Source: an uncultured Eudoraea sp. (GTDB taxonomy: Bacteria > Bacteroidota > Bacteroidia > Flavobacteriales > Flavobacteriaceae). Taken from it: 64,000 nt of DNA. The notes under the pieces were generated by a model. The model was not told the origin of the DNA. It did no database searches and saw only the letters and a list, made by a program, of their open reading frames with translations. The stretch covers positions 1 through 64,000 of the forward strand of contig NZ_CAMYKG010000007.1 in assembly GCF_947258925.1 (NCBI RefSeq). Reading direction: 5' to 3'. Shown piece by piece: positions 6,647-49,566 of the stretch. The number at the start of each line of letters is the position of its first letter. The stretch's first letter is position 1. Made by a program: the position numbers and the translations under genes.

Positions 6647-6823
6647 ATATAACTATTACTTTAATTGAAGTATTTATAAAATGTAACGTTTATCCTACAA
6701 CTAGATTGTACTAAACTTTTATTATGGATTAAATACTATGATGATTTTAATAGATGCAATTGGGTAATTCCAGAACTGAAATTGAGCAAAACCCAATACA
6801 ATGAAGATAGCAACAGAAATTAC

Positions 6824-46814: not shown

Positions 46815-47477
46815 ATGACGAAATCGGAAAAAGTATCCTTTATTATTAAAAAGCTGGATGTGTTATATCCGGTTATTCCGGTACCTCTTAACCATAAAGA
46901 CCCTTATACACTGTTAATAGCCGTTTTGCTTTCAGCGCAAAGTACTGATGTACGCGTAAATAAAACAACACCTTTATTATTTGAAAGGGCTGATAATCCT
47001 TTCGATATGATAAAATTGTCTGTTGAAGAAATAAGAGAAATCATAAAGCCTGTTGGATTATCACCAATGAAATCCAAAGGGATTTACGGTTTATCCAAAA
47101 TACTAATAGAAAAATATGATGGTAAAGTCCCCCGGGATATAGATTTGCTGGAAGAATTGCCGGCTGTTGGGCATAAAACCGCAAGTGTGGTAGTATCCCA
47201 GGCATTTGGTATCCCGGCTTTTCCTGTTGACACCCATATCCACCGACTTATGTATCGATGGGGATTATCTACTGGAAAAAATGTGGTTCAAACTGAGAAA
47301 GATGCTAAAAGGTTATTCCCATTGGAGTTATGGAATGATTTGCATCTTCAAATTATTTGGTATGGTCGTGAATATTCCCCTGCAAGAGGTTGGGATCTCG
47401 ATAAGGATATCATAACAAAAACCATAGGGAGAAAGAAAGTACTCAACAATTACTATAAAACCAAAAAAGCCCGCTAG
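46815..47477 (+). CDS. nth: Endonuclease III-type glycosylase without the iron-sulfur cluster
   Basis: 220 aa. Helix-hairpin-helix LEELPAVGHKTASVV with catalytic Lys121, and FPVDTHIHRLMYR with Asp139, as in bifunctional Nth glycosylase/AP-lyase. The four C-terminal cysteines that hold [4Fe-4S] in classical Nth are absent. The region reads SPARGWDLDKDIITKTIGRKK, and the whole protein contains no cysteine. Its stop codon lies inside a terminator hairpin. Activity on oxidised pyrimidines is expected, while cluster-dependent redox signalling is not. Confidence 0.93.
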   Translation: MTKSEKVSFIIKKLDVLYPVIPVPLNHKDPYTLLIAVLLSAQSTDVRVNKTTPLLFERADNPFDMIKLSVEEIREIIKPVGLSPMKSKGIYGLSKILIEKYDGKVPRDIDLLEELPAVGHKTASVVVSQAFGIPAFPVDTHIHRLMYRWGLSTGKNVVQTEKDAKRLFPLELWNDLHLQIIWYGREYSPARGWDLDKDIITKTIGRKKVLNNYYKTKKAR

Positions 47478-47488
47478 AGGCGGGCTTT
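47466..47488. terminator. Bidirectional terminator overlapping the nth stop codon
   Basis: AAAGCCCGC (47466-47474) pairs with GCGGGCTTT (47480-47488), loop TAGAG, so the nth stop TAG (47475-47477) forms the loop. The T-tract is best for leftward transcripts from the mini-protein gene at 47494, with a shorter one for nth. Confidence 0.85.
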
Positions 47489-47493
47489 ATAAC

Positions 47494-47637
47494 TTAATTC
47501 AAACTTGTTTCAAATTTGAATTTCTTGTACTTCGTTATTCTGAAGGACCTGGAATAATCTAGTAAAAACTGTATTGTTTCAGGGCTGGCTTTTGCCAGTT
47601 TACAAGTGTTTTTTTCTTCAGAGTAAATTTTTTCCAT
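47494..47637 (-). CDS. 47-aa mini-protein downstream of ECF sigma factor, copy 1
   Basis: A 48-codon frame from the ATG at 47635-47637. Translation begins MEKIYSEEKNTCKLAKASP and ends FKFETSLN. It aligns over its full length with the mini-protein at 48650. Both share MExIY, CKL.KA, TxxFLL.YS and a final LN. Fourteen to twenty identities in 47 residues, with equal length and the same position 71 bases after a paralogous sigma gene, show that it is a real coding sequence. Basic, helical middle, single Cys12. Function unknown, perhaps an anti-sigma or sigma-associated peptide. Confidence 0.78.
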   Translation of the reverse strand: MEKIYSEEKNTCKLAKASPETIQFLLDYSRSFRITKYKKFKFETSLN

Positions 47638-47708
47638 ATTATTATAGTATTGTTATGTACTAATAACGCAACTATAATATAAATATTGTTCTTAAAAATT
47701 TCTCCTTA

Positions 47709-48290
47709 TTAATTGGTCAGGACAATATTATGTCTTTCAATAATTTTTCTAAGGTTTATGAGCGCATAGCGCATTCTTCCAAGTGCTGTATTTATGCTCA
47801 CTCCTGTATTTTCAGATATTTCTTTAAAGCTCATGTCCTTATAAATACGCATCAACAAAACTTCTTTCTGGTCATCTGGTAATTCTTCAATTAACGATCC
47901 CAGATCACTATCTATCTGATCTTTAATAATCTGTTTTTCAGCATTTAGTTTATCATCTCCTAAAACAGAGAAAATATTAAAATCATCACTTCCTTCAAAT
48001 TTAGGCATACGCTTATTCTTTCTGAAGTGATCAATTATAAGATTATGCGAAATTCTCATTACCCAGGGTAAAAATTTTCCTTCTTCACTATATGACCCTT
48101 TTTTAAGAGTCTTAATCACCTTAATAAAGGTATCCTGAAAAATATCCTCAGTAATATCTCTATCCATTACCTTTGAATAAATAAAACTGCTTATACGCTG
48201 ATTGTGTCTTTTTATAAGAACTTCAAGTGCTTTTTCGTCGCCGCTTATATAATCTCTTACTAGTTCTGAGTCATCAATTTCGAATTCCAT
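47709..48290 (-). CDS. ECF-type sigma-70 family factor, copy 1
   Basis: 193 aa from the ATG at 48288-48290. An in-frame Met at 48341 would add 17 residues unlike its paralogue, so the shorter start is preferred. Region 2: LIKRHNQRISSFIYSKVMDRDITEDIFQDTFIKV and LPWVMRISHNLIIDHFRKNKR. Region 4: LPDDQKEVLLMRIYKDMSFKEISENTGVSINTALGRMRYALINLRK. ECF organisation without region 1 or 3. Roughly 85% identical to copy 2 by eye. No anti-sigma FecR gene adjoins it, only the mini-protein 71 bases after its stop. Confidence 0.93.
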   Translation of the reverse strand: MEFEIDDSELVRDYISGDEKALEVLIKRHNQRISSFIYSKVMDRDITEDIFQDTFIKVIKTLKKGSYSEEGKFLPWVMRISHNLIIDHFRKNKRMPKFEGSDDFNIFSVLGDDKLNAEKQIIKDQIDSDLGSLIEELPDDQKEVLLMRIYKDMSFKEISENTGVSINTALGRMRYALINLRKIIERHNIVLTN

Positions 48291-48587
48291 AGTTTGTCGT
48301 ATTTTTTGGTTAAGTTTCAGAGGCTTCTCGTGATAGGCCATTGATTATTTTTGTTAATAGTACAGTAACTATGATTTCATAATTACAAGTTAAAAGTATT
48401 CAAATAGCCAGGTCTGAGAAAAACTATGTTGTCAAACCCTCGATTTCTGATGTCAATGAACGATTTTGCACTTTTAAACACAATAAATCCAAAATAATAC
48501 AGTTGGGAGGCCCTTTTTGAGATGACAGGTAACGATCTATATTAAAGCTCATCTGTAATAGAAACTAAATCTATTTACTATTGCAAT

Positions 48588-48618
48588 AAAAAATCCCTTT
48601 GATGCAGCATCAAAGGGA
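48588..48618 (-). terminator. Terminator of the sigma copy 2 / mini-protein unit
   Basis: Read leftward, TCCCTTTGATG (48618-48608) pairs with CATCAAAGGGA (48604-48594) over 11 bp with a 3-nt loop, then TTTTTT. It lies 32 bases after the stop of the mini-protein at 48650 and separates the two duplicated units. Confidence 0.88.
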
Positions 48619-48649
48619 AGATTATCTATTTTGTAAAGAGAAGGTATCC

Positions 48650-48793
48650 TTAATTCAAATTGTTTTCAAGAATAATTCCTTTGTGTTTAGTCACATGCAG
48701 TGCCTTTGAATACTGTAGTAAAAACTCCACAGTAGCTGGTTTAGCTTTAACTAGTTTACATTTCTCTAGATGTCCGGGGTAAATCTGTTCCAT
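48650..48793 (-). CDS. 47-aa mini-protein downstream of ECF sigma factor, copy 2
   Basis: A 48-codon frame starting MEQIYPGHLEKCKLVKAKP and ending IILENNLN. Same length as copy 1, with the Cys at the same position 12 and the same TVEFLLQYSKAL helix. It starts 70 bases after the stop of sigma copy 2 and ends just before a strong leftward terminator, so the pair is one transcription unit. The preserved reading frame across the duplication argues for function. No known family recognised. Confidence 0.78.
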   Translation of the reverse strand: MEQIYPGHLEKCKLVKAKPATVEFLLQYSKALHVTKHKGIILENNLN

Positions 48794-48863
48794 AAATAAT
48801 AATGTTATGTTTAAATAACGTAACTATTAAGGAACCCTATCGGATTAGTCGTTATAGAACCGA

Positions 48864-49445
48864 TTAATTCGTTAAAACAATATTATTCTTTTCAATGATC
48901 TTTCTTAAGTTGATTAAAGCGTAGCGCATGCGTCCCAGGGCAGTATTGATACTAACCCCTGTATTTTCAGATATTTCCTTAAAACTCATATCCTTATATA
49001 TACGCATTACCAGCACCTCTTTTTGATCATCCGGAAGTTCTTCTATTAGTAAACCTAGGTCACTTTCTATCTGATCCTTGATTAACTGTTTCTCTGCATC
49101 CAGCTTATTATCGCCTAAGACCGAGAAAATATTAAAATCCTCGCTACCCTCAAATTTAGGCATACGCTTATTTCTTCTGAAATGATCAATTATGAGATTG
49201 TGAGCTATTCGCATTACCCAGGGCAGGAACTTCCCTTCTTCGTTATAAGCACCTCTTTTTAACGTCCTTATTACTTTTATAAAGGTATCCTGAAAAATAT
49301 CTTCAGTAATATCCTTATCCAGTACTTTGGAATAAATAAAGCTGGTAAGACGCTGATTGTGTCGGTTAATTAAAATTTCAAGGGATTTTTCATCCCCGCT
49401 CATGTAGTTCTGTACTAGGATTGGATCTTCTGCCTGTAGCTGCAT
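48864..49445 (-). CDS. ECF-type sigma-70 family factor, copy 2
   Basis: 193 aa, beginning MQLQAEDPILVQNYMSGDE. The same region 2 and region 4 motifs as copy 1 with conservative changes (RTLKRGAYNEEG versus KTLKKGSYSEEG). A good TTG-N22-TATATTTG promoter lies upstream at 49567-49599, with an approximately 115-base leader. The upstream boundary of both copies shares a TTTTTTGGTTAA-like string, marking the duplication edge. Copies may have diverged in promoter choice. Confidence 0.93.
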   Translation of the reverse strand: MQLQAEDPILVQNYMSGDEKSLEILINRHNQRLTSFIYSKVLDKDITEDIFQDTFIKVIRTLKRGAYNEEGKFLPWVMRIAHNLIIDHFRRNKRMPKFEGSEDFNIFSVLGDNKLDAEKQLIKDQIESDLGLLIEELPDDQKEVLVMRIYKDMSFKEISENTGVSINTALGRMRYALINLRKIIEKNNIVLTN

Positions 49446-49566
49446 ACTGATTACTTTTTTGGTTAAACTTAGGGGCCTTTATTTGGGTAAAGGACTTTAG
49501 TTATTCAGATTATTTCTCAAAAAAGTAATTTTCGTATATAGGCGTATAGATTTAGTAATTATGTTT

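Follow-up and report, generated by a model that had tools for sequence, protein, structure and literature searches.

A conserved 47-residue protein encoded behind an ECF sigma factor of the Bacteroidia: a probable minimal anti-sigma factor

Two genes for extracytoplasmic function (ECF) sigma factors stand in tandem on a 64,000-nucleotide stretch of DNA from an uncultured Eudoraea sp. (contig NZ_CAMYKG010000007.1, positions 1 to 64,000; hereafter the window, meaning the whole stretch that was analysed), and each is followed by an open reading frame (ORF) for a protein of only 47 residues. What might a protein of this size be doing behind a sigma factor? Our findings point to the mini-protein as probably a soluble anti-sigma factor of minimal size, acting on the ECF sigma factor encoded beside it. 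It resembles the stripped-down end of an anti-sigma protein and its gene has a promoter pattern of the sigma factor's own type; therefore, it probably switches the sigma factor off again. The two units, U and D, comprise the following genes:

48864..49445, minus strand: ECF sigma factor U (upstream copy), 193 residues; Pfam Sigma70_r2 and Sigma70_r4_2 above their cut-offs
48650..48793, minus strand: mini-protein U, 47 residues, proposed anti-sigma factor; pooled ratio of nonsynonymous to synonymous substitution rates (dN/dS) 0.126 over 28 same-genus pairs
47709..48290, minus strand: ECF sigma factor D (downstream copy), 193 residues, alternative start at 48341; pooled dN/dS 0.021
47494..47637, minus strand: mini-protein D, 47 residues, proposed anti-sigma factor; AlphaFold2 predicted local distance difference test (pLDDT) 81; pooled dN/dS 0.154

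Both units lie between uvrA and nth, which are on the plus strand and were named by likeness, without a domain search. The arrangement described in the original prediction, with two units of the same order, spacers of 70 nucleotides (nt) in unit U and 71 nt in unit D, and proteins of 193 and 47 residues, was confirmed, and the mini-protein residues that it listed, including a cysteine at position 12 (Cys12), are present in both copies. Pfam families PF04542 and PF08281 score above cut-off in both 193-residue sigma factors, which possess regions 2 and 4 only, without regions 1.1 or 3, and are ECF (sigma-70 group 4) members by this measure; an AlphaFold2 model of the sigma factor matches region 2 of sigmaE and SigW (4lup, 5wuq; Z 13.5; approximately residues 3-110). 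The window mini-proteins match no family in Pfam-A or NCBIfam at E <=1, and Rfam at its gathering thresholds gave no match in the window. No description of the small protein turned up in the open-access literature searched, which is not proof that it is unpublished.

The mini-protein gene is a real and old gene under purifying selection. The original prediction had named a dN/dS near 1 as grounds for refutation, and the values are far lower: among eight genomes of the same genus (28 pairs), the pooled orthologue values listed above for the mini-proteins accompany values of 0.047 for sigma U and 0.021 for sigma D. The comparison between the window copies that it had also proposed was run and is of little use, synonymous sites being almost saturated (proportion of synonymous differences 0.82 for the sigma factors and 0.62 for the mini-proteins); the informative comparison is that of same-genus orthologues. 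When named genomes were scanned with the sigma alignment, 591 stretches were confirmed and the best 80 retained. The mini-protein gene lies directly downstream of the orthologous sigma gene in all 80 of them, and in 72 of the 80 the stretch also shows uvrA ahead of the genes and nth behind them. Among 60 relatives searched, 40 gave a mini-protein match at E <=1, and the sigma gene lies directly upstream on the same strand at all 31 loci fetched (two of which are our own locus), a set that leaves out the weakest rows (E above approximately 0.1, without a locus).

This association extends across the class. An orthologue of the sigma factor is present at E <=1e-55 in 267 of 296 sampled Bacteroidia genomes, with one sigma match in every genome among the matches listed, our own genome excepted. 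A narrow mini-protein profile finds 126 of the 296 genomes at E <=0.1 and a broader profile 142 at E <=0.001; within single families the matches at E <=0.01 amount to 38/46, 34/35, 41/45 and 29/36, and no mini-protein was recognised in roughly half of the sample. From 144 mini-protein matches we kept the 112 from genomes with a sigma row among the matches listed, setting 32 aside. Directly downstream of the sigma gene and on the same strand are 89 of these 112 (gap 2-405 nt, median 105), for a chance expectation roughly estimated at 0.01. Conservation behind homologous sigma factors, on which the original prediction had staked its case, is what both surveys found. In two overlapping sets of fetched loci, the sigma gene adjoins the mini-protein gene in 21 of 29 and 42 of 60 cases. 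Additionally, in 40 sigma loci picked from genomes without a narrow-profile match, a recognisable core (at least 14 bits) lies just downstream in 17, a weaker core in 6 and a likeness by eye in 6 more. Ten of the 18 sigma-unlinked mini-protein genes in the set of 60 adjoin nth (by eye), with bcp and recA usually coming next; it looks as though the sigma gene had moved out of the old neighbourhood. Three sigma orthologues of one family have one in-frame TAA inside the match.

Members of the family share a core, P..[ST][IV]..[IF]L.[YF]SK[AS]L, followed by a variable stretch and usually by a hydrophobic residue and a final Asn. The Ser is conserved in 99% of 277 aligned sequences and the two Leu residues in 92% and 91%, and Asn is the last residue in 281 of 291 mini-proteins. 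AlphaFold2, given an alignment of 51 rows, models mini-protein D as a helix at residues 19-31 (pLDDT 93 for residues 21-30) followed by strands at 32-37 and 40-45 that form a beta-hairpin. Two candidate matches were discarded: a putative anti-sigma protein of Parabacteroides at rank 50 of the fold search with the mini-protein (E 5.6), which we treated as chance, and a weak PHROG match (phrog_20797, E 0.018), one relative's mini-protein having found no phage record.

The connection to anti-sigma factors runs through longer orthologues. Some orthologues of the mini-protein have 72-89 residues and carry a helical-looking N-terminal segment ahead of the same core; in one family their genes adjoin nth, and in several lineages they directly follow the sigma gene. 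Three of the 12 long forms compared with the NCBIfam anti-sigma model NF052375 give an N-terminal match to it (E 4e-4 to 4e-3); these matches fall far below its 100-bit cut-off, and two come from one genus. Matches to Pfam obtained with 13 forms of long or intermediate length disagreed with one another and never reached cut-off, and were rejected. An anti-sigma domain profile of 19 rows was built from the N-terminal domain of proteins fetched with NF052375. Aligned with hhalign, 11 long forms match this domain with a probability of 94.4% (score 40.5, E 8.8e-8), whereas the reversed domain scores 11.5 and none of 30 column shuffles exceeds 14.9; the seven long forms that lie directly behind the sigma gene or belong to that group reach 95.1%. 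With the domain extended, the alignment continues into the mini-protein core, placing the core at the start of helix 4, and a profile of the mini-proteins aligns with the C-terminal part of the long forms at a probability of 96.1%. Since the match is to this end and not to the domain itself, the flavobacterial mini-protein is best seen as the remainder after helices 1-3 have gone. We infer from the sequences that these helices were lost in the flavobacterial mini-protein, and that this was the direction of change.

Helix 4 of a class I anti-sigma domain (ASDI) binds sigma regions 2.1-2.2, where the beta-prime clamp would bind (PMC7406223). Covariation between sigma factor and mini-protein is centred on the same regions. 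The analysis used 277 of the 291 sigma-mini pairs, as determined by gap limits, with an effective number of 115. By mean-field coupling, the top three inter-protein pairs join sigma columns 61, 27 and 35 to the mini-protein helix and the Pro that precedes it. Against re-pairing within clusters, the mean-field signal has a z of 7.3 for columns 25-58 and of 2.3 to 3.2 elsewhere; by mutual information, only columns 25-58 (regions 2.1-2.2) are significant at three cut-offs (z 4.0, 5.4 and 3.4), with none of 200 re-pairings reaching the observed value at any of them and other regions lying between -1.2 and 0.7. Decoy proteins from the same loci gave z -1.3 (Nth) and 1.0 (UvrA) for this region, and the mini-protein on the corresponding subsets of 172 and 237 pairs gave z 6.0 and 5.7. 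One run moved the region boundary from 58 to 64 after the first coupling result; repeated with the original boundary, it had the same outcome.

A conserved promoter pattern precedes the mini-protein gene. The relevant elements in the window, with the stems that close each unit, are:

47664..47689, minus strand: ECF-type promoter pattern ACAATA-N15-CGTTA before mini-protein D, an exact match
48815..48820, minus strand: -10-like CGTTAT before mini-protein U, read from the sequence, with a -35 ACAATA not recognisable
48594..48618, minus strand: terminator-like intrinsic stem closing unit U, 11 pairs and a T tail
47466..47488, minus strand: terminator-like intrinsic stem closing unit D, 9 pairs and a T tail

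A CGT box at -10 marks the ECF-type promoter class mapped in Flavobacterium psychrophilum (PMC9723704). Of the 291 sigma-mini spacers 290 were used, 140 flavobacterial and 150 other. CAA-N17-20-CGTT is present in 98 and 109 of these, respectively (207 in total), compared with means of 1.4 and 5.2 and maxima of 4 and 13 in dinucleotide shuffles. The stricter NACAAW-N15-18-CGTT is present in 70 and 67 (shuffles 0.7 and 1.1), and CGTT alone in 136 and 147 (shuffles 31 and 53). The commonest form is ACAATA-N15-CGTTAT, and the distance from CGTT through the start codon has a median of 37 nt, with the middle half at 34-40 (n=207). Among 107 non-flavobacterial cases, 37 have a stem and T-run between the sigma stop codon and the pattern, and there sigma and mini-protein genes consequently look like separate transcription units. 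The same motif precedes 13 of the 18 sigma-unlinked mini-protein genes (12 at 48-66 nt and one at 104 nt from the start), including 8 of the 10 that adjoin nth, and with a slightly looser pattern it was found in 12 of 23 long or divergent forms, one of them doubtful.

These features suggest a simple mode of action. An active sigma factor would transcribe its targets together with the mini-protein gene, the promoter of which, ACAATA-N15-CGTTA, is most likely read by the same sigma factor. The conserved helix of the mini-protein, equivalent to helix 4 of class I anti-sigma factors, would cover regions 2.1-2.2 and with them the surface for the beta-prime clamp. A sigma factor covered in this way would be kept from the core enzyme and the response would end, resulting in negative feedback and a pulse of expression. 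The suggestion of a mini anti-sigma factor, already contained in the original prediction, has thereby gained genetic linkage, long-form homology, covariation with regions 2.1-2.2 and an ECF-type promoter pattern, and inhibition is what we infer from these sequence data.

Several observations weigh against an anti-sigma role and must be set beside the evidence in its favor. The 47-residue forms match the anti-sigma domain itself with a probability of only 0.09%, so that the homology is established via the long forms only, and the four nth-linked long forms on their own reach 17%. A fold search with the mini-protein alone returned a best E of 0.98 and no usable match, and an AlphaFold2 model of a sigma-mini read-through fusion gave no trustworthy docking (predicted template modelling score 0.38). 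Of the five strongest couplings, two involve sigma region 4; on the decoy subsets the mini-protein also rises in region 4 (z 3.3 and 2.5) and once in the linker (3.4), and Nth rises at sigma columns 1-24 (z 3.5). The covariation test is, for these reasons, not free of background. A register scan of the sigma2 contacts in Table 2 of PMC7406223 peaked at offsets 40-45 with a best value of 2.62 but did not stand out from the null of 55 re-paired runs, whose maxima over offsets averaged 2.31 and reached 2.94, or from the reversed control (2.35). The mini-protein gene does not adjoin the sigma gene in 23 of the 112 class-wide cases, and among the 40 sigma loci picked for lacking a narrow-profile match, 10 have no downstream likeness by eye and one has a core 1.4 kb away. 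In the window's own genome the promoter pattern is rare and shows no enrichment (18 matches against 45 for the reversed control), so no regulon is claimed. Finally, neither an inducing signal nor a means of release can be seen, and a sigma-binding activator would yield the same linkage and covariation.

That last point merits consideration, since an activator or stabiliser would bind region 2 and aid holoenzyme assembly, and its ECF-type promoter would make a positive loop. Crl and RbpA are models for such a manner of acting on a sigma factor. Linkage, covariation and promoter data fit this alternative equally well, as does the apparent lack of any sensory or membrane part in the 47-residue form. 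We nevertheless regard it as unlikely, for the long orthologues carry a segment that resembles an anti-sigma domain, and regions 2.1-2.2 are the site to which helix 4 of the inhibitors binds (PMC7406223). Somewhat less probable still is a role of the mini-protein as a target or effector that makes no regulatory contact with the sigma factor and stays linked to it through shared promoter context. The ECF-type pattern, retained as it is in most of the unlinked mini-protein genes, would be expected of such a target; covariation with regions 2.1-2.2 that is absent for the decoy neighbours, and long forms that are homologous to anti-sigma domains, would not.

A third alternative dispenses with the protein altogether, the ORF being untranslated and the conserved stretch a small RNA made from the ECF-type promoter. 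Promoter pattern and terminator are indeed in place, and the putative regulatory RNA Rfp11 of F. psychrophilum has an ECF-type (SM6) promoter (PMC9723704, Table 2C); Rfp11 could itself be an unannotated mini-protein gene. A non-coding ORF was ruled out by the dN/dS of 0.13-0.15 together with class-wide protein conservation, and the constancy of the final Asn and the existence of orthologous ORFs of up to 72-89 residues likewise make the small RNA a very remote prospect. A zinc-binding or redox-sensing regulator acting through Cys12, zinc binding being another role offered by the original prediction, has next to no credibility and is refuted for the family, since despite its presence in both window copies the cysteine is not conserved (mostly another residue occupies position 12 outside the window's own clade, any Cys occurs in the last 50 residues of only 26% of the 291 mini-proteins and at least two in 4%) and none of the His/Cys ligands of zinc-containing anti-sigma (ZAS) factors is conserved in the family alignments. 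Nothing observed speaks for the chaperone that the original prediction also named, although no test was aimed at that role.

As a probable anti-sigma factor, the mini-protein stands closest to the class I domains, exemplified by RseA, RsiW, ChrR and RskA (PMC7406223). Like them it is co-encoded with an ECF sigma factor (80 of the best 80 named-genome loci; 89 of 112 class-wide), its core aligns at the start of helix 4, its covariation lies at regions 2.1-2.2, and its long orthologues also carry a segment ahead of the core. Unlike them, the flavobacterial form has 44-50 residues and an added beta-hairpin, lacks helices 1-3, shows no membrane or sensor part and has an ECF-type promoter of its own. 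Because the three-helix bundle that precedes helix 4 is missing from the 47-residue form, which has one helix and a hairpin, we do not file it as an ASDI. The class II anti-sigma factors CnrY and NepR are short helical inhibitors that form a two-helix hook around the sigma factor, CnrY being membrane-tethered and NepR acting in the alphaproteobacterial general stress response. The mini-protein is likewise short, with a predicted helix, a comparison made by PDB sequence search only, in which its profile against all PDB sequences returned a single chance-level row (E 1) that is neither CnrY nor NepR.

Within the Bacteroidia, EcfO-Reo of Bacteroides and Phocaeicola also pairs an ECF sigma factor with an inhibitor; Reo spans both membranes, whereas the mini-protein has approximately 50 residues and no visible membrane part (PMC13114119). 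SigP of Porphyromonas gingivalis is a Bacteroidia ECF sigma factor for which no downstream anti-sigma candidate is listed in the accessible parts of PMC7712824 and PMC4800418; we liken it by description, there being no Porphyromonas among the best 80 of the 591 named-genome loci. More generally, anti-sigma domains were found beside 6% of Bacteroidetes ECF sigma factors as compared with 32% over all phyla, in a survey that discarded domains of <50 residues and left open whether broken synteny or other regulators account for the difference (PMC7406223).

It is tempting to speculate further. The mini-protein may represent a class of anti-sigma factors of the helix-4-only kind, about 50 residues long and missed by annotation, that is the standing partner of a near-universal, single-copy Bacteroidia ECF sigma factor, forms a self-limiting loop through a promoter of the sigma factor's own type and accounts for part of the reported absence of anti-sigma genes next to Bacteroidetes ECF sigma factors; we put this wider proposal forward tentatively, at a little under an even chance. 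The sigma factor present in 267 of 296 sampled Bacteroidia has in many of them a regulator-like partner of about the size that has been overlooked, and the mini-protein offers a concrete, testable answer for some members of a large group of bacteria from soil, sea and gut. If the anti-sigma role is correct, engineered circuits would also gain an anti-sigma unit of very small size.

The tandem duplication recognised by the original prediction is correct for the window but local in extent, a tandem pair being found in 10 of the best 80 of 591 named-genome loci (records titled Maribacter, Arenibacter, Muriicola and related), and a single copy is the general state. In the window, sigma U and D are 83% identical and mini-proteins U and D 46-47%. 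In a tree of 53 sigma factors the U and D copies fall largely apart, with five label changes against the least possible two, which indicates one or two duplications. Over 21 tandem loci, U and D sigma factors differ at 41% of positions in residues 1-24, 26% in the linker and 14-15% in region 4 and the remaining part of region 2; as the latter parts differ least, promoter choice is probably shared. The paired mini-proteins differ by 49% on average. Specificity-determining positions between the sigma paralogues of 21 genomes numbered none at 90% and two at 75%. The promoters of the two mini-protein genes have moved apart, and the division seen in the window, with a full motif before mini-protein D and a -10 only before U, recurs in other tandem loci listed. 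In the Maribacter-Muriicola group, the tandem copy allows a natural test of the way in which the specificities of sigma factor and inhibitor divide after duplication.

Of the 18 matches to the promoter pattern in the window's own genome, one is mini-protein D itself and a few others precede genes. The leads among these place the pattern 60-87 nt before genes for a TatA/E-like protein, a 210-residue protein and a cysteine-synthase-like protein (names given by eye), in one case inside another long ORF. Within the window the pattern is at chance level, with 24 matches at <=2 mismatches for 25.6 expected; ACAAT-N16-CGTTA at 6684-6709 on the minus strand lies 61 nt before the gene for a 479-residue protein with an export-like start.

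For sigma D, a start at the in-frame ATG at 48341, 51 nt upstream of the one adopted here, would give a 210-residue ORF; homology favours the 193-residue start. Sigma U is preceded by a leader element:

49450..49530, minus strand: inverted repeat ATTACTTTTT / AAAAAGTAAT in the leader of sigma U, the 3' arm of which stops 4 nt short of the start codon

This repeat, not seen by eye ahead of sigma D, is conserved in many Flavobacteriaceae just ahead of the sigma start codon and is a possible translational control point of the sigma factor. Minimum free energies (MFE) of 85-nt leaders from 30 loci range from -7.9 to -24.6, and the MFE fold does not always use the repeat stem. In 26 sequences, 97.5% of cells in the repeat are paired, and two pairs are changed on both sides in five cells, four of which have the identical change.

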